Shown here: piece after piece, positions 1,272 through 54,864 of the stretch
Layout of the letters: each line of letters begins with the position of its first letter
Position numbering within the stretch: the stretch's first letter is position 1
Source: Selenomonadales bacterium
GTDB lineage: Bacteria > Bacillota > Negativicutes > Sporomusales > UBA7701
Length of the DNA: 64,000 nt
Reading direction: 5' to 3'
NCBI GenBank assembly: GCA_029976065.1
Contig: JARKNV010000035.1
Coordinates: 1 to 64,000, forward strand
Position numbers and translations under genes: made by a program
Notes under the pieces: model-generated
Databases searched by the model: none
Seen by the model: the letters and a program-made list of their open reading frames with translations, nothing else
What the model was told of the DNA's origin: nothing

Positions 1272-1553
1272 TGTCTAGAAAGCTCCAGATGCAAGGCGCA
1301 CCGGAGGCTGACACCACCGTTTCCTCCGCGACAACGTTTATAGAGGTTGTTTGCACGGATTAGTTCAACGGCATCGCGCGTACACGTACGTACGCTGCAC
1401 CCGTAAAGGGTAGGCCGCAGTTCTAACCGCTAAAGCGCTAAGAACTGCGCACAGGATGGCAGCCGAGGAGCAAGTGCGGAGTTCTTGGTGCTTCAGCACC
1501 ATAGAACGACGGCCTGCCCCTTGCGGGTACGCCGCAGATGGACTTTCTAGACA
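1272..1553. repeat. Intergenic palindromic repeat, copy R1 (long form)
   Basis: Fills most of the dapF-dapL gap. The ends are inverted copies: TGTCTAGAAAGCTCCAGATGC on the left and, read on the other strand, TGTCTAGAAAGTCCATCTGC on the right. Inside are a TACGTACG core and the block CCGCAGTTCTAACCGCTAAA, which recurs in R7. At 282 bp it is the longest copy. It belongs to the family R1-R9 described here. No coding sequence is seen in it. Confidence 0.8.
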
Positions 1554-1559
1554 CCTCCC

Positions 1560-2405
1560 CTATAATTTGAGCAAAAACTGTCCGCGGAATACCTCCACCG
1601 CCGGCCCGGTCATAAACACCCGGTCGTCGGCGGCCCACTCGATCGTCAGATCGCCGCCGTCGAGATGCACCAGCGCCGTCCGGTCGCAGCGTCCGCTCAA
1701 AGCCCCCGCCACCACCGTCGCGCACGTCCCCGTGCCGCAGGCCAGCGTCACGCCCGCGCCGCGCTCCCACACCCGCATCCGCAGCTCGGCGCGGCCCAGC
1801 ACCTGGGCGAACTCGATATTCGCCTTGCGCGGGAAAAGCGCGTCCGTCTCGATCTTCGGCCCCGTCACCGGCAGTTCGACCTTGCTCACATCGTCGAGGA
1901 AAATCACGAAATGGGGGTTGCCCATATTCAGCCCGATGCCGTAATACGTGCGACCGTCCACCGTCACCGGCACGTTCACCGCCGTCTCCTCCGCCGGGCC
2001 GCTCATCGGAATCTCGCCCCGCTTGAACCGCGGCTTGCCCATATCCACGCGCACGCCGCTCACCTTGCCGTCCTTGAACACCAGCTCGGGCCCGATCGGC
2101 CCCGCCAGCGTCTCCAGCGTAACCTTCGTCTTGTCCGTCAGGCCCTGCTCATACACATACCGGGCCACGCAGCGGGTCGCGTTGCCGCACATCTCCGCCT
2201 CGCTGCCGTCCGAATTGATGATCTGCATCCTGAAATCGGCCGTATCCGAAGGCAGCACGAACACCAGCCCGTCCGCCCCCACGCCGAAATGCCGATCGCA
2301 CACCAGGCGGCCGGCGGCGGCCAGATCCAGCCCCGCCACCTTCTCCTTGAACCCGTTCACGATCACGAAATCGTTGCCCGCGCCCTGCCACTTAGAAAAC
2401 TGCAT
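1560..2405 (-). CDS. dapF: Diaminopimelate epimerase
   Basis: Cofactor-independent epimerase converting LL- to meso-diaminopimelate. The 281 residues match the family size. Both catalytic cysteines are present: MCGNATRC (about residue 72, base for one face) and ACGTGTCA (about residue 222, the other face). The N-terminal GAGNDFVIV motif is intact. The ATG at 2405 follows GGAGGGATATT. The gene begins 45 bp after the Ca2+ ATPase on the same strand, so both may be on one message, and dapL lies downstream. Confidence 0.97.
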   Translation of the reverse strand: MQFSKWQGAGNDFVIVNGFKEKVAGLDLAAAGRLVCDRHFGVGADGLVFVLPSDTADFRMQIINSDGSEAEMCGNATRCVARYVYEQGLTDKTKVTLETLAGPIGPELVFKDGKVSGVRVDMGKPRFKRGEIPMSGPAEETAVNVPVTVDGRTYYGIGLNMGNPHFVIFLDDVSKVELPVTGPKIETDALFPRKANIEFAQVLGRAELRMRVWERGAGVTLACGTGTCATVVAGALSGRCDRTALVHLDGGDLTIEWAADDRVFMTGPAVEVFRGQFLLKL

Positions 2406-2449
2406 AATATCCCTCCGTCAGAAACGTTAATAGTCCTCATTCCTATATA

Positions 2450-5197
2450 TTATACCCGGCTGTAAGCCGAACGCACCGGCGAGCGCCGCCGCAGCAAAAC
2501 GTGGCGCAGCCCGCCGACGATCGTCGTCCAGCCGGACAAAACCAGCACGATCGCCCATTCCGTCAAGCCCAGCGGCACCGTCCCGAAAATCCCGCCAAGC
2601 AGCGGCAGATGGATTACCGCCGCCTGCATCAGCGCCGAACAGCCGGTGGCCAGCAACAGATACTTGTTGGTGGACAGGCCCAGTTCGAAAATCGTCAGCA
2701 CCTCGGAGCGGCAGTCGTACACATGGAACAGCTGGCAGAAAACCAGCGTCGCGAACGCCATCGTCCGCGCCAGGGCCAGATCGCCCCTGGCCAGGTAAAC
2801 GCCTGCGAACACCAGCAGCGTCGTCAGGCCGATCTGGATGCCGCGGAAAACGATTTTCCGCGCCAGGCCGCGGGAAAAAACGCTCTCCGCCGGGTCGCGC
2901 GGCGGACGGTACATCGTATCCGGCGCCTTGGGGTCCACCCCCAGCGCCATCGCCGGCAGCCCGTCGGTCACCAGGTTCACCCACAGAATCTGCAGCGGCA
3001 GGAGCGGCAGCGGCAGCCCGGCCAGCGCGGCCAGAAACATCGTCAGCACCTCGCCGATATTGCACGCCAGCAGATAACGGATAAACTTCCTGATATTGTC
3101 GTAAATGCCCCGGCCTTCCTCCACCGCCGCCACGATCGTCGCGAAATTGTCGTCAGCCAGCGTCATCGACGACGCCTCGCGGGTCACGTCCGTGCCCGAC
3201 AGCCCCATCGCCACGCCGATGTCGGCTTCCTTCACCGCCGGAGCATCGTTCACCCCGTCGCCCGTCATCGCCACGATATGGCCCTTCTGCTTCAACGCCT
3301 TCACGATCCGCAGCTTGTGGGCCGGCGACACCCGCGCGTACACCGCCGTCTCGGCCGCCGCCGCCGCCAGCTCGCGCTCGCTCAGCGCATCGACCTCCGC
3401 GCCGGTCAGCGCCCGTGAAGCGCCGTCGCGGAACATCCTTAGCTCGCGGGCGATCGCCACCGCCGTATTGCGGTGGTCGCCGGTGATCATCACCGTGCCG
3501 ATGCCGGCCTGCCGGCACAGGGCGATCGCCTCCTTCACCTCCTGGCGCGGCGGATCGATCATCCCCGCCAGGCCGGCGAAAACAAGCTCGCGCTCGGCCT
3601 CCTCGGACACAGCGGCGCCCTCGGCCGGGCCCAGGCGGCGATACGCCATCGCCAGCACCCGTAAAGCCCCGCTCGTCATCGTCTCGTTGGCGGCGCCGAT
3701 GCGGGCGATCAGTTCGGGCGTCAGCGGCCGTTCGGCACTGCCGTCGTAATAATAACGGCACAGCTCCAAAACGGTGTCAGGCGCGCCCTTCACATACAGC
3801 GTCGCCCCTTCCGGCCCGCCGTAAGCCACGGACATCCGGCGTCGCTCCGCCTCGAAGGGGATCTCCGCCAAACGGCGGGCGCCCTTCTCGAACTCGGCCC
3901 GCCAGAAGCCGGCCTTCGCGGCCGCCACCACCAGCGCCCCCTCGGTGGGGTCTCCCTCCACCGACCAGCCGCGGGCGCCCTTCTTGCGCCACAGGCCGGA
4001 AATGCCCACGCTGCCCTGCTTCAGCACGCTGTTATTGCACAGGCAGCCGATAGCCAGGCATTGCATTAGACATTTATCCTTTTTGGCATCGAATTCCTGC
4101 TTGTCGAGGAAAAATTCGCCTTTGATCTCGAAGCCCACCCCGCTCAGCTCGTACGTTTTCCCGCTGCAGTACAGCTGGCGCACCGTCATCGCGTTCTGAG
4201 TCAGCGTACCCGTCTTGTCCGAACAGATCACCGTCGTGCAGCCCAACGTCTCCACCGCCGGCAGCTTCCGCACAATCGCGTTCTGGCGGATCATCCGCTG
4301 CACCCCTAGCGCCAGCGCCACCGTCACAATCGCCGGCAGCCCTTCGGGGATGGCCGCCACCGCCAGGCTGATGCCCGTCAGGCACATCAGCAGCAGCGGC
4401 TCGCCCCTGGCCACCCCGGTAGCCGCCACCACCAGACACACCCCCAGGCAGCCCCACACCAGCCAGCGGCCAAGATGGTCGAGGCGCCGCTGCAGCGGCG
4501 TCTCCTCCTCCGTCGCCGCCTGGATAAGCCCGGCGATATGGCCCACCTCGGTATTCATCCCCGTGCCGCACACGATCGCCGCTCCCCGGCCGCGGGTCAC
4601 CACCGTCCCGGCGTACACCATATTCTTGCGGTCGCCCACCGTCACATCCTCGTCATAAACCCGGTCGGCCAGCTTGCGCACCGGCAGCGACTCGCCCGTC
4701 AGCGCCGATTCCTCCGCCTCCAGGTTGCTCGTCTCCACCAGCCGGCCGTCGGCCGCCACCACATCCCCCGGCTCCAGCAGGAGAATATCGCCTGGCGCCA
4801 GCTCGCGGGCCGGCACGTGCTGGACGTTGCCGTAGCGCATCACGCGGGCCGTCGGCGCCGTCAGCCTCTTCAAAGCCGTCATCGACTGCTCGGCCTTGTT
4901 CTCCTGCATAAACCCCAGCACCGCGTTCAGCACCACGATCGCCATAATCGTCACCGCGTCGGCATACTCGCCCAACAGCCCCGAAATCAGCGTCGCCGCC
5001 AACAGCACCAGCACCATGAAATCCTGGAACTGGGCCAGGAACCGCCGCCACCAGGCCGGCCGCTCCTTCTCCGCCACCTCGTTGTAGCCGAACAGCTTCA
5101 GCCGTTCGGCCGCCTCGGCGTTCGTAAGCCCCTCGTTACGGTCGGTCCGCCAGTAGGTCAGGGCGTCGGCGGCCGTTCGGGCATGCCACTTCTCCAT
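2450..5197 (-). CDS. P-type Ca2+-translocating ATPase (SERCA/PMR1-like)
   Basis: Integral membrane cation pump of 915 residues. The order is an N-terminal cation-ATPase domain (MEKWHARTAADAL onward), the actuator loop with TGES, the phosphorylation motif CSDKTGTLTQ (phospho-Asp about residue 327), a nucleotide-binding domain with KGAPD, the hinge MTGDGVNDAPAVK, and C-terminal membrane helices. The helix motifs AIPEGLPA and NLVTDGLPA fit Ca2+-ATPases of type IIA (family knowledge). The ion is inferred and Mn2+ is also possible. The start has a GGGGTGAAAACTT ribosome site. dapF follows closely. Confidence 0.93.
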   Translation of the reverse strand: MEKWHARTAADALTYWRTDRNEGLTNAEAAERLKLFGYNEVAEKERPAWWRRFLAQFQDFMVLVLLAATLISGLLGEYADAVTIMAIVVLNAVLGFMQENKAEQSMTALKRLTAPTARVMRYGNVQHVPARELAPGDILLLEPGDVVAADGRLVETSNLEAEESALTGESLPVRKLADRVYDEDVTVGDRKNMVYAGTVVTRGRGAAIVCGTGMNTEVGHIAGLIQAATEEETPLQRRLDHLGRWLVWGCLGVCLVVAATGVARGEPLLLMCLTGISLAVAAIPEGLPAIVTVALALGVQRMIRQNAIVRKLPAVETLGCTTVICSDKTGTLTQNAMTVRQLYCSGKTYELSGVGFEIKGEFFLDKQEFDAKKDKCLMQCLAIGCLCNNSVLKQGSVGISGLWRKKGARGWSVEGDPTEGALVVAAAKAGFWRAEFEKGARRLAEIPFEAERRRMSVAYGGPEGATLYVKGAPDTVLELCRYYYDGSAERPLTPELIARIGAANETMTSGALRVLAMAYRRLGPAEGAAVSEEAERELVFAGLAGMIDPPRQEVKEAIALCRQAGIGTVMITGDHRNTAVAIARELRMFRDGASRALTGAEVDALSERELAAAAAETAVYARVSPAHKLRIVKALKQKGHIVAMTGDGVNDAPAVKEADIGVAMGLSGTDVTREASSMTLADDNFATIVAAVEEGRGIYDNIRKFIRYLLACNIGEVLTMFLAALAGLPLPLLPLQILWVNLVTDGLPAMALGVDPKAPDTMYRPPRDPAESVFSRGLARKIVFRGIQIGLTTLLVFAGVYLARGDLALARTMAFATLVFCQLFHVYDCRSEVLTIFELGLSTNKYLLLATGCSALMQAAVIHLPLLGGIFGTVPLGLTEWAIVLVLSGWTTIVGGLRHVLLRRRSPVRSAYSRV

Positions 5198-5221
5198 AAG
5201 TTTTCACCCCTTGTATCGTGG

Positions 5222-5411
5222 CGGCCGTTGATAAGCGAAACTTGGCAAGGGCGATTAGCCCGAGCCTTAGTTGAGCTATCCGCGCCCATTGGCGCGGGAA
5301 AGGCCCCATCTGCGGTGTTGGTCCTGCGCGTGTTCGCTCGGCGTACGCCAGCATGTACGCCTCCGCTCACATGCTCGGCCCGCCTAGCATCTGGGGCTTT
5401 CTGAACGGCCG
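5222..5411. repeat. Intergenic palindromic repeat, copy R2
   Basis: Lies in the 340-bp divergent gap between the Ca2+ ATPase and rqcH. The outer arms CGGCCGTTGATAAG and, on the other strand, CGGCCGTTCAGAAAG pair with each other. An inner CCCCATCTGCGG/GCATCTGGGG pair flanks a GTACGC-rich centre. The left arm has about 75 extra bases before the CATCTG core, so this copy is longer than the 120-bp type form. The rest of the gap holds the rqcH promoter. Confidence 0.75.
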
Positions 5412-5477
5412 TTCTCTAACCATGATATTCCAAAACTGGCAGCCTTAGACCCGTTGCCACGACACTTTGACATGCAT

Positions 5478-5506
5478 TTGACCCCTTACGGCAGGGATGA
5501 TATACT
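5478..5506 (+). promoter_or_regulatory. Sigma-A-type promoter for rqcH
   Basis: TTGACC at 5478-5483, a 17-bp spacer and TATACT at 5501-5506, about 32 bp before the rqcH start codon. It lies outside repeat R2. Confidence 0.65.
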
Positions 5507-5537
5507 AATGGCGAAAATTACCGCGGAGGTTTCCCCC

Positions 5538-7292
5538 ATGAACATCGACGGCCTTTCCCTGCGGCCGCTCGTCGCCGAACTCGACCAACGGCTGGCCGGC
5601 GCCCGCATCGACAAGATATCCCAGCCCGACAAAACCCGCCTCGGCCTATGGCTCCGCCAGCCGGGCGAAAACATCGCCCTCCTCCTGTCCGCCAACCCGG
5701 AAAACGCCGGCGCCTGGCTGCCCGCGTCCCTGCCGGAAAATCCGGCCGTTCCCCCCTCCTTCTGCATGCTCCTCAGAAAACACCTCGAAGACGGCCGCAT
5801 CGCCGCCGTCACCCAGCACGGCCTCGACCGCGTCGTCGCCTTCGCCGTCGACATCCGCGGCGAGCGCGGCCTCATCGTCACCAAACAGCTCATCCTCGAA
5901 ATAATGGGCAAACACAGCAACCTCATCCTCGTCCAGGACGGCATCGTCCTCGACGCCATCCGCCGCATCGGCGCCGGCCTCAGCCGCGTCCGCCAGGTTC
6001 TGCCCGGCCGCCCCTACGCCCTCCCTCCCGGCCAGCCCCGCGCCGACCTCCTCGCCGCCGACCCGGCCGCCTTCGTCGCCGCCCTGCGCGCCGGCCACGG
6101 CAGCCTCGGCCTCGCCAAAGCCATCGTCGCCGCCGCCGAGGGTGTCGGCCCCGTCTCCGCCAAGGAAATCGCCTGGCGGGCCGGCCTCCCCGCCGACCAC
6201 CCCGTCGACCGCCTCGACGACGCCGACGCCGGCGCCCTCGCCGAAGCCGTCGCCAGCATCGCCGCCCCCATAGCCGCCGGCGAAAGCCAGCCCACCGTCG
6301 CCCTAAGTCCCGACGGGAGCAAGCTCCTCGCCGTCGCCGCCTTCCGTCCCGAGCACCTCGCCGGCGACCTCCGGACCTTCCCGGCCATGGCCGCCGCCGT
6401 CGAATACGCCGCCAACTTCCAGGGCCAGCCCGTCAATCCGGAAAAAACCGCCCTGCAGAAAATCCTCGCCCAGGAAACGGCCCGCCTCGCCCGCAAGGAA
6501 GGCGTCCTCGCCGCCGAACTGGCCGCCGCCGACGAAGCCGACAAATACCGCCTCCACGGCGACCTCCTCATGGCCAACCTCCACGTCGTGCCGGCCGGCG
6601 CGCGTGAGGTCACCCTCCCCAACCTCTACGCCGCTGACGCCGCCCCGCTGGCCATCCCTCTCGATCCCCTCCTCAGCCCCGTCGCCAACGCCAAACGCCA
6701 CTACGTCAAATACAACAAAGCCAAACGGGCCCAGCAGAGCCTCGCCGCCCAACTCGCCGAATGCCGCGCCGACCTCGCCTACCTCGACAGCGTCGCCGTC
6801 GCCCTCGACCACGCCGCCCTCCTCGACGAAATCGGCGAAATCCGCCAGGAACTGATCCAGGCAGGCTATATAAAAGAAAAAAGCAAGCGCCGCCCCCTGC
6901 CGCCCGCCGCGCCGCTTGCGGCCGCCGCCCCCGACGGCACCCCCGTCCTCATCGGCCGCAACAACCGTCAGAACGACCTCGTCACCTTCAAACACGCCGG
7001 CCCCGACGACCTGTGGCTCCACACCAAGGATATCCCCGGCTCCCATGTAATCTTGAAATGCGCCGGCCGCGAGCCCGCCCCCGAAGCCCTTGCCGCCGCC
7101 GCCATGCTCGCCGCCTACCACTCAAAAGCCCGCGCCTCGGCCACCGTCCCCGTCGACTACACCCGCCGCCGTTACGTCAAAAAACCGGCCGGCGCCAAAC
7201 CCGGCTTCGTCATCTACGACCACCAGAAAACAGTCTTCGTCACCCCTGACGAGGACGCCGTCAAAAAGCTGCTTATAAACAAAAAAGGATAA
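5538..7292 (+). CDS. rqcH: RqcH, NFACT-family ribosome quality-control protein
   Basis: Bacterial Rqc2/NEMF homologue that binds peptidyl-tRNA on obstructed 50S subunits and directs C-terminal alanine tailing; older annotations call it fibronectin-binding protein. The 584 residues fit. It has an N-terminal NFACT-N domain (MNIDGLSLRPLVAEL, IMGKHSNLILV, DAIRRIG), a central coiled coil (residues about 290-430) and a C-terminal NFACT-R domain (GRNNRQNDLVTFKHAGPDDLWLHTKDIPGS, shown here only as the GRNNRQND and DLWLHTKDIPGSH parts). The ATG at 5538 follows GGAGGTTTCCCCC; upstream in-frame ATGs lack a ribosome site. It is the only plus-strand gene in the first 14 kb. Confidence 0.95.
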   Translation: MNIDGLSLRPLVAELDQRLAGARIDKISQPDKTRLGLWLRQPGENIALLLSANPENAGAWLPASLPENPAVPPSFCMLLRKHLEDGRIAAVTQHGLDRVVAFAVDIRGERGLIVTKQLILEIMGKHSNLILVQDGIVLDAIRRIGAGLSRVRQVLPGRPYALPPGQPRADLLAADPAAFVAALRAGHGSLGLAKAIVAAAEGVGPVSAKEIAWRAGLPADHPVDRLDDADAGALAEAVASIAAPIAAGESQPTVALSPDGSKLLAVAAFRPEHLAGDLRTFPAMAAAVEYAANFQGQPVNPEKTALQKILAQETARLARKEGVLAAELAAADEADKYRLHGDLLMANLHVVPAGAREVTLPNLYAADAAPLAIPLDPLLSPVANAKRHYVKYNKAKRAQQSLAAQLAECRADLAYLDSVAVALDHAALLDEIGEIRQELIQAGYIKEKSKRRPLPPAAPLAAAAPDGTPVLIGRNNRQNDLVTFKHAGPDDLWLHTKDIPGSHVILKCAGREPAPEALAAAAMLAAYHSKARASATVPVDYTRRRYVKKPAGAKPGFVIYDHQKTVFVTPDEDAVKKLLINKKG

Positions 7293-7313
7293 GACGCAAG
7301 TCTTATCCTTTTT
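7282..7313. terminator. Bidirectional terminator between rqcH and the flavin oxidoreductase
   Basis: A 13-bp stem (AAAAAGGATAAGA and its complement) with loop CGCAAG and T-tracts on both strands. The rqcH stop codon lies inside the left arm. Confidence 0.9.
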
Positions 7314-7322
7314 GCTTATTTT

Positions 7323-8519
7323 CTATCTCTGCCCCGGCAGGCGGCCGTAGTAGCACTGCAGCGGATTCGCCCCCACGCCGATCAGGCAATAGTTGCAGTT
7401 GATGCACCGCGACCCCTCCTGGCGGCCGTCGCGCAGCCGGGCCACGATATCCGGCTCGATCACGAACGGTCGGCACAGCGACACATAATCCGCCTGCCCG
7501 GCGGCGATGATTCCCTCGATCGCGTCCAGCCGCCGTATCCCGCCGACCACGAGCACCGGGATATCCACCGCCGCCTTGATCGCCGCCGCCGCAGCCACGT
7601 TGTAATTCTCCTGCTCCCCGTACGTCGGAAACAGCCGCGGGAGGAGCAGCGCCGCCACCTTCTTCTTCAGCCACGACGCTCCCCGCAAAGCCGGCGCCAG
7701 TTCCAGGATCGCCGCTACCGGCACTTGGCGCGACCTAACCACGCAGAACCAGTTATCGTTGCCGCACGACACCTCGATCGCGTTCAACGACGCCTCCCGG
7801 CACAGCCCGGCCAAGTTCACCGCCTCCTCCAGGCGCATGCCGCCGTCGTCGTAGTCGTACGCGCTCAGCTTCGCCAGCAGGGGGAAATCGCCCACCGTCT
7901 GCCGCGCCCGGTCCACGATCTCCCGCACGATCCGGAAGCGGTTCTCCGCCGACCCGCCCCAGCGGTCGCGCCGCCTGTTCAGCGCCGGCGACAGGAACTG
8001 CGCCAGCAGATACCCGTGGGCCGCGTGCAGCTGCGCCCCGTCGAACCCGCTCCGCCAGGCGCGGCTTATCCCCTGCGCGAACGCGGCGATTATCCGCTCG
8101 ATCTCGCCCTCCGTCAGCTCCCGCGCCGTCGTCGCCGCCCCCTTATAGCGGCGGCGCGAAGGCGCCTTGGCCTCTTCCCCGGTCACCGCCGGCTCCGCCC
8201 GGCCGCCGGCGTGGGCCAGCTGCAGAACGAGCGGCGCACCGTACGGCTTCACCGCCTCCGTCACCCGCCGGTAAGCCGATATATAATCGTCGTCGTCGAT
8301 CATCAGCATGTTCGGCCATGCCCGGCCGTCCCTGCTCACCCCCGCGTAGCCGGTGATGATCGCCCCCGCCCCGCCCTGCGCCAGGCGGATATACCGCTCC
8401 GCCAGCCGCGCCGCGAAATCCTCCCGGTCGCCCAGCCCTTCATGGGTCGCCGACCGTATTATCCTGTTCGCCAGCCGCATTCCGGCCAGCGTCGCCGTCT
8501 CGAAAACCCGCATTCTCAT
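7323..8519 (-). CDS. Old Yellow Enzyme family NADH:flavin oxidoreductase
   Basis: FMN-dependent ene-reductase of 398 residues containing a single OYE TIM barrel. Family landmarks are visible: NRIIRSATHEG at the N-terminus, the HAAHGYLLAQFLSP active-site strand, NRRRDRWGGS, and the C-terminal VVGGIR and FVIEPDIV segments. The C-terminus carries a Cys cluster (CINCNYC followed by another Cys), resembling the iron-sulfur ligands of dienoyl-CoA-reductase-type members, although the second domain of those enzymes is absent. The start at 8519 has AAGGAGCGGAA. The substrate cannot be read from sequence. Confidence 0.88.
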   Translation of the reverse strand: MRMRVFETATLAGMRLANRIIRSATHEGLGDREDFAARLAERYIRLAQGGAGAIITGYAGVSRDGRAWPNMLMIDDDDYISAYRRVTEAVKPYGAPLVLQLAHAGGRAEPAVTGEEAKAPSRRRYKGAATTARELTEGEIERIIAAFAQGISRAWRSGFDGAQLHAAHGYLLAQFLSPALNRRRDRWGGSAENRFRIVREIVDRARQTVGDFPLLAKLSAYDYDDGGMRLEEAVNLAGLCREASLNAIEVSCGNDNWFCVVRSRQVPVAAILELAPALRGASWLKKKVAALLLPRLFPTYGEQENYNVAAAAAIKAAVDIPVLVVGGIRRLDAIEGIIAAGQADYVSLCRPFVIEPDIVARLRDGRQEGSRCINCNYCLIGVGANPLQCYYGRLPGQR

Positions 8520-8660: not shown

Positions 8661-8717
8661 CCTAGAACTGCGGCCTGCCCCTTGCAGGCACAACGCAGAC
8701 GGGCGCTTATCAGCGGC
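8661..8717. repeat. Partial intergenic repeat, copy R3
   Basis: Only one end of the family is recognisable. GAACTGCGGCCTGCCCCTTG and the following GCAGACGGGCGCTTATCAGC match the right half of R1 and R6. The matching left arm is not evident, so this looks like a decayed or truncated copy. It lies between pyrR and its terminator. Confidence 0.55.
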
Positions 8718-8728
8718 CGCCGCCCTTT

Positions 8729-10350
<1,622 letters not shown>

Positions 10351-13957: not shown

Positions 13958-14077
13958 GGTTGCGTTAAAAGCTCCAGATGCAAGGCGCACCGGAAGAGCG
14001 CGCCGCGACGCGTACTTGGTTGCGTACGCTAGCAAGCGCTCTGAGGAGCAACGCCGCAGATGGACCTTTTACGCGAC
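13958..14077. repeat. Intergenic palindromic repeat, copy R5 (120 bp)
   Basis: GGTTGCGTTAAAAGCTCCAGATGC on the left pairs with GGTCGCGTAAAAGGTCCATCTGC read from the right. The centre is GCGTACTTGGTTGCGTACGC. It occupies nearly all of the gap between the nitroreductase and the DUF5665-like gene. Being in frame, it falsely extends the nitroreductase. Confidence 0.8.
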
Positions 14078-14082
14078 CGAAC

Positions 14083-14388
14083 TTAAAAACGGCCTTTCCC
14101 GTTCGTCTCCTCCACTATTCGCATAATCTCGGCGATGAAGCCGCCGATGCCGGGGATATTCAGCATGATCACCCGGCGGAAGAACTCCAGCATCAGCGCG
14201 AAAATCAGCGTCGCCCCGATCGCGATCCCCAGCCCCCGCGCCAGCCCGGCCGCGAAATTCAGGAACAGCATCCGCGCCGGCCGCTGCATCAGCTCCACAT
14301 ACTCGGCCACGTTCATCTTCTCCAGATACTGCGCCAGCCGTTCCAGCTGGGCAGCGATCACGTCCGCCTTGCCAACATCCTGCGCCAT
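14083..14388 (-). CDS. DUF5665-like membrane protein
   Basis: 101 residues with a basic-amphipathic N-terminal half (QLERLAQYLEKMNVAEYVEL), then one or two helices (FAAGLARGLGIAIGATLIFALMLEFF) and IPGIGGFIAEI near the end. This is the layout of DUF5665 proteins of Firmicutes (from memory). The start is taken at 14388 with GGGGG seven bases upstream; the ATG at 14394 is an alternative. The function is unknown. Confidence 0.7.
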   Translation of the reverse strand: MAQDVGKADVIAAQLERLAQYLEKMNVAEYVELMQRPARMLFLNFAAGLARGLGIAIGATLIFALMLEFFRRVIMLNIPGIGGFIAEIMRIVEETNGKGRF

Positions 14389-14577
14389 CGGCATACCCCC
14401 ATATAGCCTAGTATCTCCACGCGGCGGCAAAAAATAAGGCCGCATACCGCGTCCGCCGCGCCGCCGCGCCGGCTTGCCGGCCGGCAAATTCTCTTTTCCC
14501 GGCTAAAGGAACGACGCCTTTTCCACCGAAATATCAATATATTCACACCCAATCAAATCATGAGAGAAGGTACGACC

Positions 14578-21401: not shown

Positions 21402-24194
<2,793 letters not shown>

Positions 24195-24271: not shown

Positions 24272-24448
24272 GCGACCGTTCAGAAGTGCCCAGATGCAAG
24301 GCAGGTCGAGGACGCACAGCGCCGCGTACTCGGACGTACGCAAGCAAGCGCCCGCAGACCTAAGAGCGCCACTCTTAGCGCTTTAGCGGTTAGAGTGGCG
24401 GCCTGCCCCTTGCGGGTACGCCGCAGATGGGTACTTATCAACGGTCGC
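24272..24448. repeat. Intergenic palindromic repeat, copy R6, inside ileS leader
   Basis: GCGACCGTTCAGAAGTGCCCAGATGC on the left pairs with GCGACCGTTGATAAGTACCCATCTGC from the right strand. It contains GTACTCGGACGTACGC and a nested hairpin with TTAGCGCTTTAGCGG. It lies between the T-box terminator and the ileS start codon. Confidence 0.8.
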
Positions 24449-24453
24449 CCCAA

Positions 24454-24665
24454 TAAAAAAAGACCAGTCCTAAAGGGACGAGGTCTCCTCGCGGTACCAC
24501 CCTAATTGCTCACGCCACTCACAACGTCTAACGCCCGTCACGCGGCGGAGCCTACTGCCTTCGGTCCGCAGCTCGGGAGGGATCTTCGCCGTATCCGTCC
24601 TGCCGGGCTTCCACCGCCCCCGGCTCGCTGGGAAGACTTGGACGGGCTACTCTCTCCGTCATCGC
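24454..24665 (-). promoter_or_regulatory. T-box leader, isoleucine specifier, controlling ileS
   Basis: The T-box core AGGGTGGTACCGC is at 24491-24503 (minus strand). Stem I runs from about 24660, and a GCGAAG-ATC-CCTCCC context places the Ile specifier at 24591-24593. The intrinsic terminator is at 24454-24485 (AGACC...GGTCT and a seven-T tract). Uncharged tRNA-Ile would stabilise the antiterminator and raise ileS expression (established mechanism). Confidence 0.93.
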
Positions 24666-24675
24666 CTGTAACTAC

Positions 24676-24851
24676 GGCGATTGATAAACTTCGCCTAGCT
24701 TTGCACCCGTAAAGGGCAGGCCGCAGTTCTAAGCGCTAAAGCGCTAAGAACTTGCGCACTTGCCTGTGTCTCCGCGGTCCTCAACGTACTTTCATGTACG
24801 CCTCCGGCCGCGAAGCCACATGCGCCTCGCTATGCTCGTTTCTGAATCGCC
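24676..24851. repeat. Intergenic palindromic repeat, copy R7, between promoter and T-box
   Basis: GGCGATTGATAAAC on the left pairs with GGCGATTCAGAAAC from the right strand. It includes CCGCAGTTCTAAGCGCTAAA, shared with R1, and a TACGTAC-like centre (GTACTTTCATGTAC). The CCAGATG core is degraded to CATAGC. It lies between the presumed ileS promoter and T-box stem I, so it is probably transcribed as the 5' end of the leader. Confidence 0.7.
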
Positions 24852-28551: not shown

Positions 28552-28679
28552 CAAAAACTGGCGATAAAACCCCGTCTGCGGCGTTACGGCTCGGCCGCTA
28601 CCCTCCGACGTACGTTACGGTGCGCCTCCGGTCGCGTCCTCCCCGTGCCTTGCATTTGGGGCTTTCTAGCCAGTTTTTG
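28552..28679. repeat. Intergenic palindromic repeat, copy R8
   Basis: CAAAAACTGGCGATAAAACCCCGTCTGC on the left (first 20: CAAAAACTGGCGATAAAACC) pairs with CAAAAACTGGCTAGAAAGCC from the right strand. The outer arm CAAAAACTGGC is unique to this copy, yet matches at both ends. The centre holds GACGTACGTTACGG. It accounts for most of the 305-bp gap before yggS. Confidence 0.8.
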
Positions 28680-46577: not shown

Positions 46578-46606
46578 TTTTCAAAAACGAAAAGGAGTGG
46601 TAACCA

Positions 46607-48055: not shown

Positions 48056-48072
48056 TAATCCGCTTAAACGCC

Positions 48073-48102: not shown

Positions 48103-48111
48103 GTGTACGTA

Positions 48112-48807: not shown

Positions 48808-48842
48808 ACGCCATTCCTCCCGCCGAATGCGAACCCGACAAC

Positions 48843-49835
48843 CTAGAATATCGGCTGATAAGCGTACAGCGCGGGCGAGCCGCCCGTATGCACGAACAGG
48901 ACGTTATCATCCTTTTGGAAGTGCTTTTGGCGGATGAGCCCGATAAGGCCGGCCATGGCCTTGCCCGTATACACCGGATCGAGCAGGATGCCCTCGGTCG
49001 TGGCCATCAGCTTCACCGCCTCGATCATTTCCGGCGTCGGCAGTGAGTAGCCCGGCCCGACATATTCTTCATAACAGACCACCGCCTCGCGGGGAATCGC
49101 CTGCTTGATGCCCAGCCTGACGGCGGTGCGCCCGACCAGCCCGTAGACCAGCTCCTCCTGCACGCTCTTTTTGCGGCTGATATTGATGCCGATCACCGGG
49201 ATGTTGGTGTTATTGCCGTAAAACCCGGTCACGAGGCCGGCGTGGGTGCCGGCGCTGCCGCTCGTGGTGACGACATAATCGAGGTTCAGCCCTTTATCGA
49301 ACGCCTGGGCGATTATCTCCTCGGCGCAGGCCACGTACCCGGTCGCGCCGATCTCGTTGGAACCGCCGCCGGGAATGATGTACGGCTTGCGGCCTTGAGC
49401 CGCCACGCCGTCCGCGACAACCTGCATCTCCTTCATCATATCCGACCCGCCGGGGACCACTTTTATCCCCTCGACGCCCAGCAGGCGGAAAAGGAAATTG
49501 TTGCCGCTGGCATCGGCCTTATAACTGCCGGCAACGCGTTCCTCCAGCACCAGCTGGCATTTGAGGCCCTCTTTCACCGCCGCCGCCAGGGTAAGGCGGC
49601 AATGATTCGACTGCACCGCGCCGCAAGTAATCAGCGTATCAGCCCCCTGGGCAAGGGCGTCAGCCACGAGGAACTCCAGCTTGCGGGTCTTATTGCCGCC
49701 TGAAGTCAAGCCGAGGAGATCGTCCCGCTTGATGAAAATGCGGGGCCCGCCGAGCGCGGCGGTAAAGCGGGGCAGAAACTCCAGCGGGGTTTGCCCCTCG
49801 GTATAACGTCTGCGGGGAAACTGTGCCAAGTTCAT
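48843..49835 (-). CDS. dcyD: D-cysteine desulfhydrase / ACC-deaminase family enzyme
   Basis: 330 residues, fold-type II PLP enzyme. The PLP lysine is in SGGNKTRKLEFL; CGAVQSNHCRLTLAAA and TTSGSAGTHAGLVTGF are cofactor loops. D-cysteine desulfhydrase gives pyruvate, H2S and ammonia through a 2-aminoacrylate intermediate; L-cysteate sulfo-lyase and ACC deaminase are close relatives and cannot be excluded. It lies between a dicarboxylate/amino-acid symporter and a racemase, with ridA in the same operon. Confidence 0.88.
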   Translation of the reverse strand: MNLAQFPRRRYTEGQTPLEFLPRFTAALGGPRIFIKRDDLLGLTSGGNKTRKLEFLVADALAQGADTLITCGAVQSNHCRLTLAAAVKEGLKCQLVLEERVAGSYKADASGNNFLFRLLGVEGIKVVPGGSDMMKEMQVVADGVAAQGRKPYIIPGGGSNEIGATGYVACAEEIIAQAFDKGLNLDYVVTTSGSAGTHAGLVTGFYGNNTNIPVIGINISRKKSVQEELVYGLVGRTAVRLGIKQAIPREAVVCYEEYVGPGYSLPTPEMIEAVKLMATTEGILLDPVYTGKAMAGLIGLIRQKHFQKDDNVLFVHTGGSPALYAYQPIF

Positions 49836-49885
49836 AATGACAACTCCTTCAAATATATATACCGTTGCCGGAAACGTCCTTCCCC

Positions 49886-51100
49886 TTAGGCGGACACGCC
49901 CGCTTTCTCCACCTTGTCTTCCGCCCTCTGAATGAATACTGACGCGACGGCGTCACCGGTAATGTTCAGCGTAGTGCGGGCCATATCCAGCACCCGGTCG
50001 ATGCCGGCGATCAGCGCGATGCCCTCCAGGGGAAGACCTACCGACTGCAAGGTCAGGGTGAGCATTATCAGTCCCGCGCCGGGCACACCGGCCGCCCCGA
50101 TGGAAGCGAGCGTTCCCGTGAGCACGATCACCAGCATCTGGCTGAGCGACAAATCGATGCCGTAGATCTGGGCCACGAACAACGCGGCAACGCCCTGATA
50201 AATCGCGGTGCCGTCCATATTGATCGTCGCGCCGAGAGGCAGGACAAAGCTGGACACTTCCTTCGACACCCCGAGATTCTCCTGGGTATTCTTCATCGTC
50301 ACCGGCAGGGTAGCCGCGCTGCTGCAGGTCGAAAACGCGATCATCTGCGCGGGAAGGATGCCCTTGAAAAATCGGACGGGGCTAAAATCGACCAGCAGCT
50401 TCAGGATAGCCGAATAAGTTATGCTCATATGAATCAGGCAGCCGATATAGACGGCGGCGATTACCTTGGCCAAAGGGATCAGGACCTTAGGCCCGTTGGC
50501 TGCCACGACGGGCAGAATCAGCGCGAAAACGCCGATCGGCGCAAACGCCATGATCACGCCGACAATCTTATAGGTTACCTCGGCCAGCCCGTCAAAAAAC
50601 GATTCGACCGGCTTCGCCCGCTCTCCCACCAGCGTAATGCCGATGCCGACAAACAGCGCGAAAACAATGATCTGGAGCATATCGGCGTTCAGCATGGCTT
50701 GGATAACGTTGGTCGGCACCATATTAACAAATACATCCATAAGCGGAGGAGCTTCCTTGCCCTTGTAAACCGCGTTGGCCGGCAGTTGCAGGCCCGAGCC
50801 GGGGCTCATCACCAACGACATGACGATCCCGATCACCACCGCCACCGCCGTCGTAACAAGATAGAACACTATCGTTTTGCCGCCGATGCGGCCAAGTTTG
50901 CGCACATCGCCGAGACTTGACGCGCCGACGACCAAGGAAGCGAGCACCAGGGGAACAATTATCATCTTGATCATGTTGATGAACAACGTGCCGAACGGGG
51001 CGATCCACTTCTTCACGACGCCCAGCCCCTCGGGACCTACGACCAGACCGGCCGCCACACCCAGTACCAGACCGATAAGAATCTTGTTGGACAGATTCAT
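49886..51100 (-). CDS. Dicarboxylate/amino acid:cation symporter (DAACS)
   Basis: 404 residues, GltP/DctA-like. The hairpin and helix motifs are FSTCSSAATLPVTMKNTQE, LPLGATINMDGTAIYQGVAA and GAAGVPGAGLIMLTLTLQSVGLP (as GVPGAGLIMLTL). It uses Na+ or H+ to import acidic or other small amino acids. RIL-AGIDRVLDMARTTLNITGD (as DRVLDMARTTLN) completes the substrate site. It follows ridA by 53 bp and precedes dcyD by 50 bp on the same strand. Confidence 0.93.
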   Translation of the reverse strand: MNLSNKILIGLVLGVAAGLVVGPEGLGVVKKWIAPFGTLFINMIKMIIVPLVLASLVVGASSLGDVRKLGRIGGKTIVFYLVTTAVAVVIGIVMSLVMSPGSGLQLPANAVYKGKEAPPLMDVFVNMVPTNVIQAMLNADMLQIIVFALFVGIGITLVGERAKPVESFFDGLAEVTYKIVGVIMAFAPIGVFALILPVVAANGPKVLIPLAKVIAAVYIGCLIHMSITYSAILKLLVDFSPVRFFKGILPAQMIAFSTCSSAATLPVTMKNTQENLGVSKEVSSFVLPLGATINMDGTAIYQGVAALFVAQIYGIDLSLSQMLVIVLTGTLASIGAAGVPGAGLIMLTLTLQSVGLPLEGIALIAGIDRVLDMARTTLNITGDAVASVFIQRAEDKVEKAGVSA

Positions 51101-51153
51101 AAGGTGCCTCCTTCATGCAAAATATTGACGAAAGCGGTGCTACCCTGCCATCC

Positions 51154-51534
51154 TCAATTGACGAAAGCCATCACCTCGATTTCCACCCCGACATCCTTGG
51201 GCAGCCTGGCAACCTCCACGCAGGACCTGGCCGGAGGATCGGCCGGGAAAAACTCGGCATACACCGCGTTGACCCTGGCGAAATCATCCATGCTCCTGAT
51301 AAACACCGTCGTCTTCACCACGGACTGAAGGCTGCTGCCCGCCGCCTCCAGGACGGCCTTCACATTTTGCAGGACCTGCCTGGTCTGTTCCTCGATAGTA
51401 CCCGTGATCAACTGTCCGGAAACCGGCTCCAGGGGAATCTGCCCCGACGTGAAAACCAGATTTCCGATCCGGATTGCCTGTGAATAAGGTCCGATTGCCG
51501 CAGGCGCGGCCGGCGTCTGTACAATTTGCCGCAT
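51154..51534 (-). CDS. ridA: RidA-family enamine/imine deaminase
   Basis: 126 residues. RidA quenches reactive 2-aminoacrylate and related imines by hydrolysis to keto acids. Signature segments: [41 protein letters not shown]-type centre (given as [18 protein letters not shown]) and the C-terminal [19 protein letters not shown] with the catalytic Arg. First gene of the operon that also encodes a 2-aminoacrylate-producing desulfhydrase, a chemically sensible pairing. Confidence 0.95.
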
Positions 51535-51593
51535 ATCATCTCTCCTTTTTAGCTGCCAAGCCGATCAAAGGCCCGTCTGTTAATCCTGCTTTG

Positions 51594-51649
51594 AGTGTAA
51601 AATTATTTCAACTCCCTGTCAACATTTACTTAAAATTTTTTAAGTAAAT
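51594..51649 (-). promoter_or_regulatory. ridA-operon promoter with adjacent 26-bp palindrome
   Basis: Minus strand promoter: TTGACA (51617-51622), 17-bp spacer, TACACT (51594-51599). Immediately upstream of the -35 is ATTTACTTAAAA-TT-TTTTAAGTAAAT (51624-51649), a perfect inverted repeat with 12-bp arms. The position, ending one base from the -35, suits an activator; the divergent YheO-like regulator is the candidate binder. Confidence 0.75.
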
Positions 51650-51674
51650 TTAAAATTATTTTTAAGAACACGTA

Positions 51675-51703
51675 TTGTAAGAGCCTGGATTTTCCGCTAA
51701 AAT
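51675..51703 (+). promoter_or_regulatory. Promoter of the YheO-like regulator
   Basis: TTGTAA (51675-51680), 17-bp spacer, TAAAAT (51698-51703); a TATAAT overlaps at 51703-51708. Confidence 0.55.
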
Positions 51704-51771
51704 ATAATTGGAAAATTTGCGTCACCCTTTGCGTTTATCGCCGAGCGCCGGCCATTCTAGGAGGTATCGCC

Positions 51772-52416
51772 GTGAGCGACATTCATGAGGAAGTCAGGAA
51801 ATTCATACCCTTTATCGATGCCATACAAGCCACGGTCGGCCCGCACTGCGAGATCGTCCTGCACGACTTTGCCCGGCCCGAGCAATCGTTGGTCCACATC
51901 GCCGGCAACGTCACCGACCGCCGAATCGGCGCTCCCATCACCGACTTTGTCCTGGCAAGGCTCCGCCAACACGGCGATGGCTGCGAAAACTTCATGAACT
52001 ACACGACGAACACGCAAACCGGCAAAACACTCCGCTGCTCCACCCTGTTTATCCGCAACGCCGCGGGAAAAATCGTCGGCTGCCTGTGCATCAACCTCGA
52101 CATCTCCCCAATGCTGGCCTTAAAACACTTCGTCGACGCCAGCCTGTCGGTAAACAGCGTTCCCATGGAAGAAAACTTCTCCAACGACGTCTTCGAAGCA
52201 TTGAACAGCATTATCAAAGATACCCTGGCGCCCTACCAAATTCCCGTCGCCAATCTGCCGAAAGAAGAAAAACTGAACATCGTCAGCCACCTTGACGAAA
52301 AAGGCGCCTTCCTCGTCAAGGGCGCGGTCGAACAGGTCGCAACCGCCCTCGGAGTATCGCGTTATTCCATCTACAACTACCTGGACGAAGTCCGCAGCCT
52401 CAGGAACGGCAAATAA
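51772..52416 (+). CDS. YheO/DauR-type transcriptional regulator
   Basis: 214 residues. The N-terminal YheO (PAS-like) domain covers about 1-125: IDAIQATVGPHCEIVLHDFA, GRTIG-like NVTDRRIGAPITDFVL, and KIVGCLCINLDISPM. The C-terminal HTH reads VATALGVSRYSIYNYLDEVR. DauR in Salmonella/Pseudomonas controls D-arginine use (recalled), consistent with a role over the divergent D-amino-acid-like operon. Start GTG 51772 with AGGAGGTATCGCC. Confidence 0.87.
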   Translation: MSDIHEEVRKFIPFIDAIQATVGPHCEIVLHDFARPEQSLVHIAGNVTDRRIGAPITDFVLARLRQHGDGCENFMNYTTNTQTGKTLRCSTLFIRNAAGKIVGCLCINLDISPMLALKHFVDASLSVNSVPMEENFSNDVFEALNSIIKDTLAPYQIPVANLPKEEKLNIVSHLDEKGAFLVKGAVEQVATALGVSRYSIYNYLDEVRSLRNGK

Positions 52417-52448
52417 CCCGCCCGAAAACCGCGTTTGCCCATAAACAC

Positions 52449-52479
52449 AAAACCGGCCGGAACAACACCGGCCGGTTTT
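52449..52479 (+). terminator. Terminator of the YheO-like regulator
   Basis: AAAACCGGCCGG / CCGGCCGGTTTT, loop AACAACA. Confidence 0.9.
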
Positions 52480-52614
52480 CCATTTATCTCACCCGACGCC
52501 CGTCACCCTTCCCGCCCTGCGCGCCGCACGATTTCCGGCATACCCGCCCCGCCGGCGAATATACATATACCAGGCCGCGCACCGTGGCCAAAAAATACTA
52601 CAGGGGGAGAGGAC

Positions 52615-53838
52615 ATGCGTCGGAAAGACAAGTTCGAACAAGGGGCCCTCCGCATTGAGCCGCTGACCTTCTGGGAAGCCGTCTGCATCATCGTCGGCGC
52701 CAACATCGGCGCCGGGATACTCAGCCTCGCCTTCGGCATCCGCAAAGCAGGCTGGCCGCTGCTCGTACTCTGGCTGCTCGTCGCCGGCGTCTTCACCACC
52801 ATCTCCATGCTCTATGTGGCCGAAACCACCCTCCGCACCAAAAAACCGCTCCAGCTCAGCGGCCTGGCGGAAAAATACCTCGGCCAGTTCGGCTCCTGGG
52901 CGATGTTCGCCGCCGTCGCCATCAACTCCATCGGCTGCCTGATAGCCTACACCAACGGCAGCGGCAAAATCCTCAGCAGCCTGCTCGGCGTCGCGCCCAC
53001 CGTCGGCAGCCTGCTGTTCTTCATCCCCGCCGTCGTCGTAATATGGTACGGCCTCAGAGTCACAGGCGTAGCCGAGAAATTCATCACCTTCGGCATGGTA
53101 GCGCTGGTATCCATCCTCATCATCGCCTCGATCGCCGGCCCCGGCCTCAAAACCGCCTTCCTCACCTACTTCAACTGGTATTATTCCATTCCCGTCTTCA
53201 ACCTCGCCATCTTCTGCTACATCGCCCAATACGCCGTCCCCGAGCTCACGCGCGGCTTCGCCGAAAGCGACGTCAGCCAGCTGCCGCAAGCCATCACCAC
53301 CGGGATGTTCCTCACCGGCATCCTCCTCGCCCTCGTGCCCATGTCGGCCCTCGGCCTGAGCGGCCCGGAGAAAGTCACCGAAGTCGCGACAATCGCCTGG
53401 GGTCAGGCGCTCGGGCAATGGGCCTTCTTCACCGCCAACACCTTTGCCCTCTGCGCCATGCTCACCTCCTTCTGGGCAGTCGGCGAAACCTTCCTCACCA
53501 ACATCGTCGACCGGCTAAAATTCTCCTCGGAGTGGAACGTCAAAGACCGCCTCATCGCCCTCGCCCTTGTCGTCGTGCCGCCCTTCTGGCTCGCCTACAG
53601 CGGCCTGGTCGGCTTCGTCGGCGCCATCTACTTCGCCGGCTCCTTCGCCGGGGTCATCATGTCGATCGTCCCGGTCATGATGCTGCGGGAAGCGAGAAAA
53701 AGCGGCGACCGCGAGCCTGAGTGGACCTGCGGCGCCATCGCCCATCCCCTCGTCCAGACGCTGCTCATCGTCCTCTTCTGCGGCGGGGCGCTCTACGCCA
53801 TCCTCGACTTCATCAAAGTGCTGCCGCACGGCTGGTAG
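52615..53838 (+). CDS. Amino acid permease, HAAAP/aromatic type
   Basis: 407 residues, about eleven helices. The first helix FWEAVCIIVGANIGAGILSL carries the GANIGAGIL ion/substrate motif of the hydroxy/aromatic amino acid permease group (TyrP, Mtr, SdaC). Start ATG 52615 with AGGGGGAGAGGAC; a longer frame to 52435 overlaps the preceding terminator. An acetamidase/formamidase gene begins 11 bp downstream, so the pair probably imports and deamidates one compound or recycles ammonia. Confidence 0.85.
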   Translation: MRRKDKFEQGALRIEPLTFWEAVCIIVGANIGAGILSLAFGIRKAGWPLLVLWLLVAGVFTTISMLYVAETTLRTKKPLQLSGLAEKYLGQFGSWAMFAAVAINSIGCLIAYTNGSGKILSSLLGVAPTVGSLLFFIPAVVVIWYGLRVTGVAEKFITFGMVALVSILIIASIAGPGLKTAFLTYFNWYYSIPVFNLAIFCYIAQYAVPELTRGFAESDVSQLPQAITTGMFLTGILLALVPMSALGLSGPEKVTEVATIAWGQALGQWAFFTANTFALCAMLTSFWAVGETFLTNIVDRLKFSSEWNVKDRLIALALVVVPPFWLAYSGLVGFVGAIYFAGSFAGVIMSIVPVMMLREARKSGDREPEWTCGAIAHPLVQTLLIVLFCGGALYAILDFIKVLPHGW

Positions 53839-53849
53839 GAGGTGCCCCG

Positions 53850-54737
53850 GTGCAGATAATCTCCCGAGACAAAGTCATCTACCGCTTCAGCCCCGCCAAC
53901 CCGCCCGTAGCCACCGTCAGCCCCGGCGAAGAATTCTGGGTCGAAACCCGCGACTGCTACAGCGGCCAGATAAAAAGCGCAAAAGACCTCCGGCCCCATA
54001 TCGACACCTCGATAATGAACGCCGCCACCGGGCCGATAGCGATCGCCGGCGCCCGCCCCGGCGACGTGCTGTGCGTGGAAATACGGGAAATCGAACTGGC
54101 CGGCTACGGCATCATGCCCACCAACCCCGGCCTCGGACCGCTCGGCGAGCGGATAACCGCCGCCGACACCAAAATAATCCCCATTGAGGGCGGCTTCGCC
54201 CACTTCTCGCCGGCGATAAGGCTCCCCCTCGCCCCGATGGTCGGCGTCCTCGGCGTGGCGCCGCCGGACGGCAAAATCCCCTGCGTCACCCCCGGCGACC
54301 ACGGCGCAAACATGGACACCACCGACATCAAAGCCGGCAGCCGAGTCTACCTCCCCGTCTTCGTCCCCGGGGCCAACCTGGCCGTCGCCGACCTCCACGC
54401 CTGCATGGGCGACGGCGAACTCAGCGGCACCGGCATCGAAATCGCCGGCCGGGTGCGGCTCGCGGCCATGCTGGTCTCCGGCCTCGCGCTCGCCGGCCCG
54501 GTCGTCGAAACCGAAGCTGCCTTCCTGGTCGTCGCCAGCGGCCCAGAATTCCGCGAAACGGCCCGCACCGCCATCGCCCGCGCCGCCGACCTCATCGGCA
54601 AAGCGCTGGCCGCCCCCTTCCCCGACGCCTACCGGCTGGTCAGCGCCGCCTGCGACCTGAAAATCAGCCAGATCGTCAACCCGCTGCTGACCGTGCGCGT
54701 CGCCATCCCCAAATACCTCATGCCCCGCCTCGTCTAA
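53850..54737 (+). CDS. Acetamidase/formamidase family amidase
   Basis: 295 residues of the FmdA/AmdA fold. The metal/catalytic region is PGDHGANMDTTDIKAGSRVY followed by VADLHACMGDGELSGTGIE. RPHIDTSIMNAATGPIAI near the N-terminus is also typical. It hydrolyses short amides to ammonia and a carboxylate; substrate specificity is not readable. Start GTG 53850 (TAGGAGGTGCCCCG overlaps the permease stop region). Confidence 0.9.
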   Translation: MQIISRDKVIYRFSPANPPVATVSPGEEFWVETRDCYSGQIKSAKDLRPHIDTSIMNAATGPIAIAGARPGDVLCVEIREIELAGYGIMPTNPGLGPLGERITAADTKIIPIEGGFAHFSPAIRLPLAPMVGVLGVAPPDGKIPCVTPGDHGANMDTTDIKAGSRVYLPVFVPGANLAVADLHACMGDGELSGTGIEIAGRVRLAAMLVSGLALAGPVVETEAAFLVVASGPEFRETARTAIARAADLIGKALAAPFPDAYRLVSAACDLKISQIVNPLLTVRVAIPKYLMPRLV

Positions 54738-54742
54738 AACTC

Positions 54743-54864
54743 GGTTGCCGATAAAGCCCCATCTGCGGCGTTGCTCCTCAAAGCGCTTGCTTGCGTACGT
54801 CCCGATGTACGCGGCGCGGCGCGCTTTTCCGGTGCGCCTTGCATCTGGGGCTTTCTAGGCAACC
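54743..54864. repeat. Intergenic palindromic repeat, copy R9 (122 bp)
   Basis: GGTTGCCGATAAAGCCCCATCTGC on the left pairs with GGTTGCCTAGAAAGCCCCAGATGC read from the right; the arms match at 19 of 24 positions. The centre is GCGTACGTCCCGATGTACGC. A further half-end (GGTTGCCGAAAGCCCC) follows at about 54891. The cleanest type copy, between the amidase and sod genes. Confidence 0.85.

Follow-up and report, generated by a model that had tools for sequence, protein, structure and literature searches.

The window analysed here comprised 64,000 nt of a Selenomonadales bacterium genome (GCA_029976065.1, contig JARKNV010000035.1, positions 1 to 64,000, forward strand) and contained a family of palindromic repeats, R1 to R9, lying between its genes. 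These repeats are very probably miniature inverted-repeat transposable elements (MITEs) of an IS1182-type insertion sequence (IS), which would insert at the 3' foot of terminator-like stem-loops and duplicate them. The window alone does not reveal the full unit including its tail, its terminal inverted repeats, the duplication of stem-loops or the partner IS of the IS1182 family. A sequence-only reading of the window had described nine related intergenic copies, and related sequence was present at all nine places according to sequence inspection and folds.

The forward strand of an element was defined as arm-GAT-AAGCCCCATCTGC...GCATCTGGGGCTT-CTG/A-arm. Full copies were R5 (13958..14078, - strand), which lay about 4 nt from the stop codon of a called gene (14083-14394, -), R8 (28552..28679, +) with 11-bp outer arms CAAAAACTGGC and GCCAGTTTTTG, and R9 (54743..54864, +), which started 5 nt past a called gene ending at 54737. 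R4 (9297..9415, +; core 9306-9406) was oriented opposite to its flanking genes and had imperfect outer arms. In R2 (5222..5417, +; core 5300-5401), the left arm CGGCCGTTGATAAG was parted from the core by about 60 bp of foreign sequence, a hairpin-rich insert (5238..5299, no strand assigned) delimited from the sequence. R1 (1272..1485, -) was a degenerate copy with a long interior, poorly paired ends and an approximate right limit, identified by sequence and fold, and R6 (24272..24451, -) also had a long interior. R7 (24676..24851, +; arms GGCGATT and AATCGCC) was a diverged long copy identified by sequence and fold, while R3 (8661..8726, -) was a partial copy consisting of one half and identified from the sequence. 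An iterated profile recovered seven of the nine copies, namely R2, R4, R5, R6, R8, R9 and, as a 37-nt fragment only (1278-1314), R1; R3 and R7, being partial or diverged, were missed and were recognised by eye only. The earlier statement that both ends of each copy pair had exceptions in R1, whose ends were unpaired in the predicted fold, in the imperfect arm of R4 and in R2, interrupted by its insert. The motif CCAGATGC occurred 10 times in the window compared to 2.1 expected, a number reached in none of 100 shuffles, and six of the 10 occurrences were inside R copies.

A T-box leader (24471-24671, -) was bracketed by R6 and R7; R6 sat just downstream of it, between the leader and a called gene (21402-24194, -), and R7 adjoined it on the other side. 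An interior module (CACCCGTAAAGGG, GCAGTTCTAACCGCTAAAGCGCTAAGAACTGCG and relatives) was seen by eye in R1, R3, R6 and R7, indicating that the interiors are mosaic. Sequence similar to the hairpin-rich insert of R2 was also found in the own genome (G000:C76, locus L268), where it flanks an IS with ends GGGCCTGTTGACAA and a PF13751 protein that splits it, apparently within the loop.

Copy number, gene context and unoccupied sites

The own genome (G000), a 3.42-Mb draft of 82 contigs that is 88% complete, gave 177 candidates at first look, 40 of which were scored and yielded 42 matches. A profile iterated from four window copies gave 50 matches in 452 kb, which merged to 45 elements. The exact 11-mer CTTGCATCTGG was found 96 times in this genome and eight times in a relative of the family; four genus relatives had 54, 78, 120 and 121 occurrences, and the reversed pattern was absent from all six genomes. 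Since 28 of 50 sampled own elements carried the 11-mer, the own genome likely contains about 170 copies. Their density was uneven, with 45 copies in the 452 kb, partly chosen for matches, versus five in 250 kb of other contigs. The family is genome-wide, with many further copies outside the window.

With R5 as the query, matches were obtained in 24 of 60 genomes including the own, and few matches reached the class level. Named records sharing a 30-mer of the repeat (a set from which the own genome was possibly omitted) were metagenome-assembled genomes (MAGs) of Sporomusaceae or Selenomonadales, except for one contig labelled Paludibaculum (L081, JARKQJ010000244.1). This 6.8-kb contig of an acidobacterial MAG was probably wrongly binned. 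Five viral contigs matched a 17-mer of the repeat, and the profile found no match at E 0.01 in these stretches. On one contig of a relative (G001:C1), all 53 exact 11-mers lay beyond the first 0.9 Mb, although R5 matched more weakly at 0.57 Mb, and the strand used changed near 1.87 Mb. The matches on G018:C1 were located at 22931, 48679, 74427 and 100175, an exact spacing of 25,748 bp that would be explained by tandem repetition of a 25.7-kb unit or by an artefact of assembly.

Genes were called with a hexamer-based caller made for this analysis. Only 36% of G013, a genome of another family of the same order, was covered, so gene context was limited to the genus sample. None of the 132 elements in this sample lay inside a called gene. 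With respect to their neighbours, 81 elements were co-oriented with both, 24 were opposite, 14 lay between convergent and 10 between divergent genes, and three were at edges. The convergent and divergent copies were divided 12:11 by contig majority, and replication as a cause of the orientation bias was inseparable from gene orientation. In some copies the element's own TAA appeared, by eye, to act as the stop codon.

Presence and absence between sister genomes were evaluated in 293 site-by-genome comparisons within the genus. Sites were occupied in 204 and unoccupied in 89 of them, and 43 of the 89 passed a strict flank filter. In the window, the R4 site was unoccupied in G003 and G004, and the R5 site in G001, G003 and G004. 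Some unoccupied sites were remnants (site 118 in G003, site 52 in G003 and G004, and site 26 in G001). No flank conserved throughout the genus was found outside the arms. Unoccupied relatives lacked arms and core together at sites 53, 64 and 86, indicating that the arms are part of the unit. These sites also bear on the possibility that the arms pair because the element had inserted into pre-existing palindromes. The arms of R8 resemble a terminator stem and the apparent target, described below, is a stem-loop, but unoccupied relatives lack the arms at the three sites and the duplicated stem-loops lie outside the arms. None of the unoccupied sites inspected had both arms, and the 5' arm was present, as part of coding sequence, in the unoccupied relatives of site 106. 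Insertion into ready-made palindromes is thus highly improbable as the origin of the arms.

Fold, covariation and strand asymmetry

Six copies folded as RNA gave z-scores of -3.6 to -8.7. From the outside, the structure consisted of an outer stem, a 3x3 loop, a second stem (stem 2) and a 2x2 loop, the latter being UC/UC on the forward strand and tandem G-A on the reverse strand. The internal loops were conserved, with mismatches persisting in most copies. In 28 full-length own copies, the 16-nt flanks paired with a mean of -14.8 kcal/mol within a copy compared to -9.0 kcal/mol between copies, a difference equalled in none of 20,000 permutations. The G013 genome contained 36 full copies with arms of 8-17 nt, loop included. 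Among 35 aligned G013 copies, double changes were found at all nine outer-arm pairs and 91.4% of those cells paired; for the outer arm together with a 3-pair inner helix, 93.6% of cells were paired versus 76.4% after shuffling (0 of 500 shuffles). Four of five covariation measures were reached by none of the 500 shuffles and the fifth, pair types, by 31. The covariation of the outer arms that had been noticed in the window copies therefore held when more copies were aligned.

Changes at orthologous sites were in agreement with this result. After 22 ortholog pairs had been set aside, 47 comparable pairs with nine arm columns each gave 372 unchanged cells, 13 Watson-Crick double changes, 31 single changes and seven others. 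At the C58:11557 site the second stem was identical in G001, G004 and G002, while one arm position was A-T, A-C and G-C, respectively, and G004 had one further G-T pair. The pattern speaks for compensation that proceeds step by step at a fixed site, although exchange between copies remains conceivable in general. Covariation, conserved internal loops and the stepwise double change at an orthologous site together support selection on the fold over the sequence, as the sequence-only reading had suggested.

The covariation might instead be mutational, with template switching or gene conversion keeping the palindromes matched. Interiors often differed between occupied orthologous sites, so exchange among copies does happen. 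We nevertheless regard this explanation as unlikely, since internal-loop mismatches persist uncorrected in most copies, one-sided states are strand-biased in stem 2, and at one site only one arm pair has changed next to an unaltered stem.

The strand bias was seen when one-sided changes in stem 2 were counted as A-C versus G-U on the gene-sense (forward) strand, an A-C there being a G-U on the reverse strand. The ratio was 49:4 in 30 distinct G013 stems and 46:11 in an earlier count of distinct genus stems. For genus copies it was 39:5 when co-oriented with their neighbours, 7:2 when opposite and 12:2 when convergent or divergent; as the direction was the same in all groups, it is the element that the bias follows and not its gene context. 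For the outer arms the ratio was 40:9 over 99 copies, but under a stricter count the bias was clear only in co-oriented copies (22:5; 10:6 in the others). By predicted energy, the reverse strand was the better folder in 54 of the 81 genus copies and in 32 of the 36 from G013. We hold with moderate confidence that the reverse strand is the preferred fold, as RNA or as single-stranded DNA, and strand-biased mutation is also conceivable. The relevant fold would then be that of CCAGAUGC...GCAGAUGG, the strand lying antisense to the majority of neighbouring genes.

Complete units, duplicated stem-loops and a probable IS1182-family partner

Six complete units, young copies in relatives of the order, were 142-150 bp long, with CAGNNYGTYGANAA at the left end, then the hairpin, and finally a tail of 16-26 nt whose last bases were the right terminal repeat TTNTCWACANNCTG. 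Terminal inverted repeats were thus present in young copies, and the outer stem was formed by the left terminal repeat paired with a subterminal inverted copy. The units were short, had no transposase gene and were multicopy, with 54-121 exact 11-mers per genome in five genus genomes.

In a first direct-repeat search, five of 36 G013 copies scored 16.5-26.5 compared to a control maximum of 9 among 108, and the genus copy C58:126029 had a stem-loop of 31-32 nt in duplicate, scoring 28 where the highest of 288 controls scored 11. A wider search covered 78 unique copies (51 from G013 and 27 others), of which 16 equalled or exceeded the best of 156 shuffled-partner controls (10.5). L167 (tRNA genes) and L171 (repeats 22 and 72 nt from the unit) were dropped. 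The 14 retained duplications came from G013 (nine), G005 (three) and G012 (two) and scored 13-36.5. In 13 of them the repeats were predicted stem-loops of 14-43 nt, those of L166 and L221 weakly so. The first stem-loop ended at most 4 nt from the outer arm and the second began 16-26 nt past the other arm. At least four T's were found within 10 nt after the repeat in eight of the 14, which makes terminator a well-supported label for about half of them and an inferred one for the others. For example, the stem-loop was followed by GTTTTTTT in L147 (30 nt), by AATTTTTT in L155 (25 nt), by GTTTTTT in L241 (16 nt) and by TTTTT in L149 (14 nt). When all sequence gathered was scanned for exact repeats of at least 14 nt around CAG...CTG, 19 rows at 11 sites were obtained. 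Eight sites were units (including L073, L093 and L157) or IS with a stem-loop repeat, and three (L018, L087 and L167) were unrelated and folded weakly or not at all. L073 showed the complete arrangement: a 30-nt stem-loop, the 143-bp unit CAGACTGTCGATAAAGG...CAGTCTG-ACATTGCCTACAAGCTG and the same stem-loop again.

An early search for a full IS with unit ends in the sequence then gathered returned 34 rows and no convincing IS. The partner IS came from a search for PF13751, which was found in seven of 13 genomes. L261 (G001) was 1596 bp long, began with CAGGCTGTCGACAAAG, ended with CTTTGTCTACAAGCTG and lay between two copies of a 24-nt stem-loop; L260 (G021) was 1549 bp long and lay between two copies of a 30-nt stem-loop. 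Their proteins carried PF13751, PF05598 and PF01609 domains and matched NF033551 (IS1182 transposase) at 436 and 434 bits, respectively (cut-off 270). L293 (G006) was a decayed relative of 1342 bp with a 20-nt stem-loop repeat, its kinship being indicated by 45 residues with 59% identity to L261. At its right end, L261 was identical to unit L093 at 16 of 16 positions; its left end differed from that of L073 at two of 16, and this left end folded back onto a subterminal copy. Complete L261-like proteins were detected in G001 (100%) and G021 (57%) among 16 genomes, and the own genome had only a 30% relative and one weaker. A different IS of G001 (1805 bp, a 539-aa frame, eight equal-score PF13751 matches) directly adjoined an element copy in both loci examined (L267, element 139-242 and IS from 241; L273, IS to 2045 and element from 2054), as if the element hairpin were the target of that IS.

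From the sequences, the repeats would be gene-less short transposons moved in trans by an IS1182-family DDE transposase, with the target read as a hairpin. A terminator-like stem-loop would receive the insertion at its 3' foot and be duplicated in full. The copy beyond the element would keep any T-run, so termination would presumably continue, and the outer arms would be the left end paired with its subterminal copy. A more far-reaching version is possible, though we put it forward tentatively and with more doubt than belief: the transposase may recognise by shape both its target, which could be any terminator stem-loop, and its own left end, a hairpin of one strand in which letters may drift under compensation, with the target hairpin setting the duplication length and the terminator regenerated at each insertion.

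A short interspersed nuclear element (SINE)-like retroelement moved by reverse transcriptase would also be expected to show a strand bias and duplications of variable length (14-43 nt), and RVT_1 matches were found in G002, G003, G014, G016 and G019. There was, on the other hand, no RVT_1 match in G000, G001, G004, G005, G009 or G013 (six of the 11 genomes searched, G012 not among them), and G013 is the genome with most young copies. The duplicated length is also that of a stem-loop, and the terminal repeats match a DDE-type IS. This model, which we consider very unlikely, was put aside because of the RVT_1-free genomes, G005 and G013 included, and the DDE-type ends.

Several observations weigh against the MITE interpretation. 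Recognisable target duplications were found in none of the nine window copies, and terminal inverted repeats were likewise not recognisable there. Only C58:126029 among 96 genus copies had a duplication clearly above control, and the L224 repeat does not fold. A stem of at least 7 bp at the 5' foot was found only in six of 51 G013, six of 27 other and four of 96 genus copies, compared to three of 255, three of 135 and two of 480 shuffled sequences, respectively, which the real copies exceed. The left end of L260 folds, by eye, only from inside the terminal repeat, unlike that of L261. L261-like fragments only were found in G012 (81% over 199 aa), G005 (79% over 69 aa) and G022 (72% over 100 aa), and no match in G002, G004, G013 and G016. 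With regard to strand, all paired cells of a 78-copy genus alignment gave 212 G-U versus 151 A-C on the forward strand, and G-U exceeded A-C by 227:71 in the inner halves on the gene-sense strand. Finally, the core started at most 32 nt from the upstream stop codon in 66 of 81 co-oriented tandem genus copies, so the outer arm begins near the stop codon.

Some of these points can be accommodated. The window copies share core, arms and fold with the young units and were assigned to the family on this basis; they appear to be old members that have lost tail and duplication. From the scarcity of 5'-foot stems, most copies are old or inserted elsewhere. Because the L261-like protein is missing or fragmentary in most hosts, G013 included, the mover there either has been lost or is a different one. 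Of the 212 G-U cells, 123 came from three inner columns in which G-U is nearly constant, so that the excess hardly reflects independent changes; the conflict with stem 2 stands. Genus copies at stop codons without an intervening stem-loop may have replaced a stem-loop, may have lost the first one or may have taken on a later role.

The position close to stop codons, the tandem orientation (81:24), the double changes that keep pairing at orthologous sites and the conserved internal loops are also what would be expected of a structured RNA with a host role, in the 3' untranslated region or between operon genes, that is kept by selection and whose mobility is incidental or past. We consider it rather unlikely that this is the whole explanation, given the presence/absence between sister genomes, the stem-loop duplications and IS-like ends of relatives, and the better-folding strand in stem 2, which is antisense to most neighbouring genes. 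Rfam contained no family for the repeat; at gathering score the window gave two T-boxes only, and the stretch 54700-54920 (R9) gave no match at E up to 1. A structured-RNA role can coexist with the MITE interpretation as a later use of old copies. Of the two options named in the sequence-only reading, a structured RNA or a hairpin-recognised mobile unit, the evidence thus favours the mobile unit, with the hairpin as both apparent target and own end; a structured RNA alone does not describe the repeats. As a caution, a repeat in bacteria may covary strongly without being a regulatory RNA.

The number of target bases that a transposase duplicates is usually fixed; the stretch duplicated here is a stem-loop, whatever its length (14-43 nt). 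This suggests how an element could settle at many gene ends with little harm, since the stem-loop is copied along with the insertion.

Comparison with known systems

Bacterial MITEs are short, have no open reading frame, carry terminal inverted repeats, generate a target duplication and share their ends with a full IS. The repeats described here agree with all of these features and differ in that the duplication length tracks the target stem-loop and the left end folds with a covarying subterminal copy. Group IIC introns insert just after terminator stem-loops. The repeats resemble them in this, whereas their target is duplicated and RVT_1 is absent from G013 and G005, which hold 12 of the 14 duplications.

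As abundant intergenic imperfect palindromes, the repeats also resemble repetitive extragenic palindromic (REP) sequences and bacterial interspersed mosaic elements (BIMEs) with their REP-associated tyrosine transposases (RAYTs). Movement of REP elements by a Y1 (RAYT/IS200-type) transposase would fit the many palindromes and the seven Y1 matches in G001. The ends differ, however, and among five genomes searched (G013 not among them) Y1 matches were lacking in G000 and G005 and were only short in G003 and G004. To our knowledge, stem-loop duplications are not expected from Y1 enzymes. With no Y1 match in G000 (88% complete) or G005, this origin was put aside as extremely improbable.

Some IS1182 members reportedly have long direct repeats listed in ISfinder, and curators may therefore know part of the finding.

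The closest parallel is IS1272, a member of the IS1182 family. IS1272 inserts into hairpins, several of them shown terminators, and removes them without duplication (PMC4923244; PMC5678879). The present repeats are like it, as far as these accounts go, in the transposase family of the partner IS, in a stem-loop target without fixed sequence and in insertions just downstream of genes (Furi 2016, PMC4923244; Wan 2017, PMC5678879). They are unlike it in that the target stem-loop is duplicated, whereas IS1272 removes it, and that the carrier is mostly gene-less. Stem-loop replacement of the IS1272 type was not encountered in units with recognisable flanks, in which the stem-loop was duplicated. 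Within open-access PubMed Central text, no IS1182-derived MITE and no documented whole-stem-loop duplication was found, whole-stem duplication being only proposed (PMC5678879). In pathway (b) of that proposal by Wan et al. (2017), joining at the 5' feet of a stem-loop would duplicate the whole stem-loop (PMC5678879). The units described here look like products of this pathway and would be natural examples of what the IS1272 authors had drawn.

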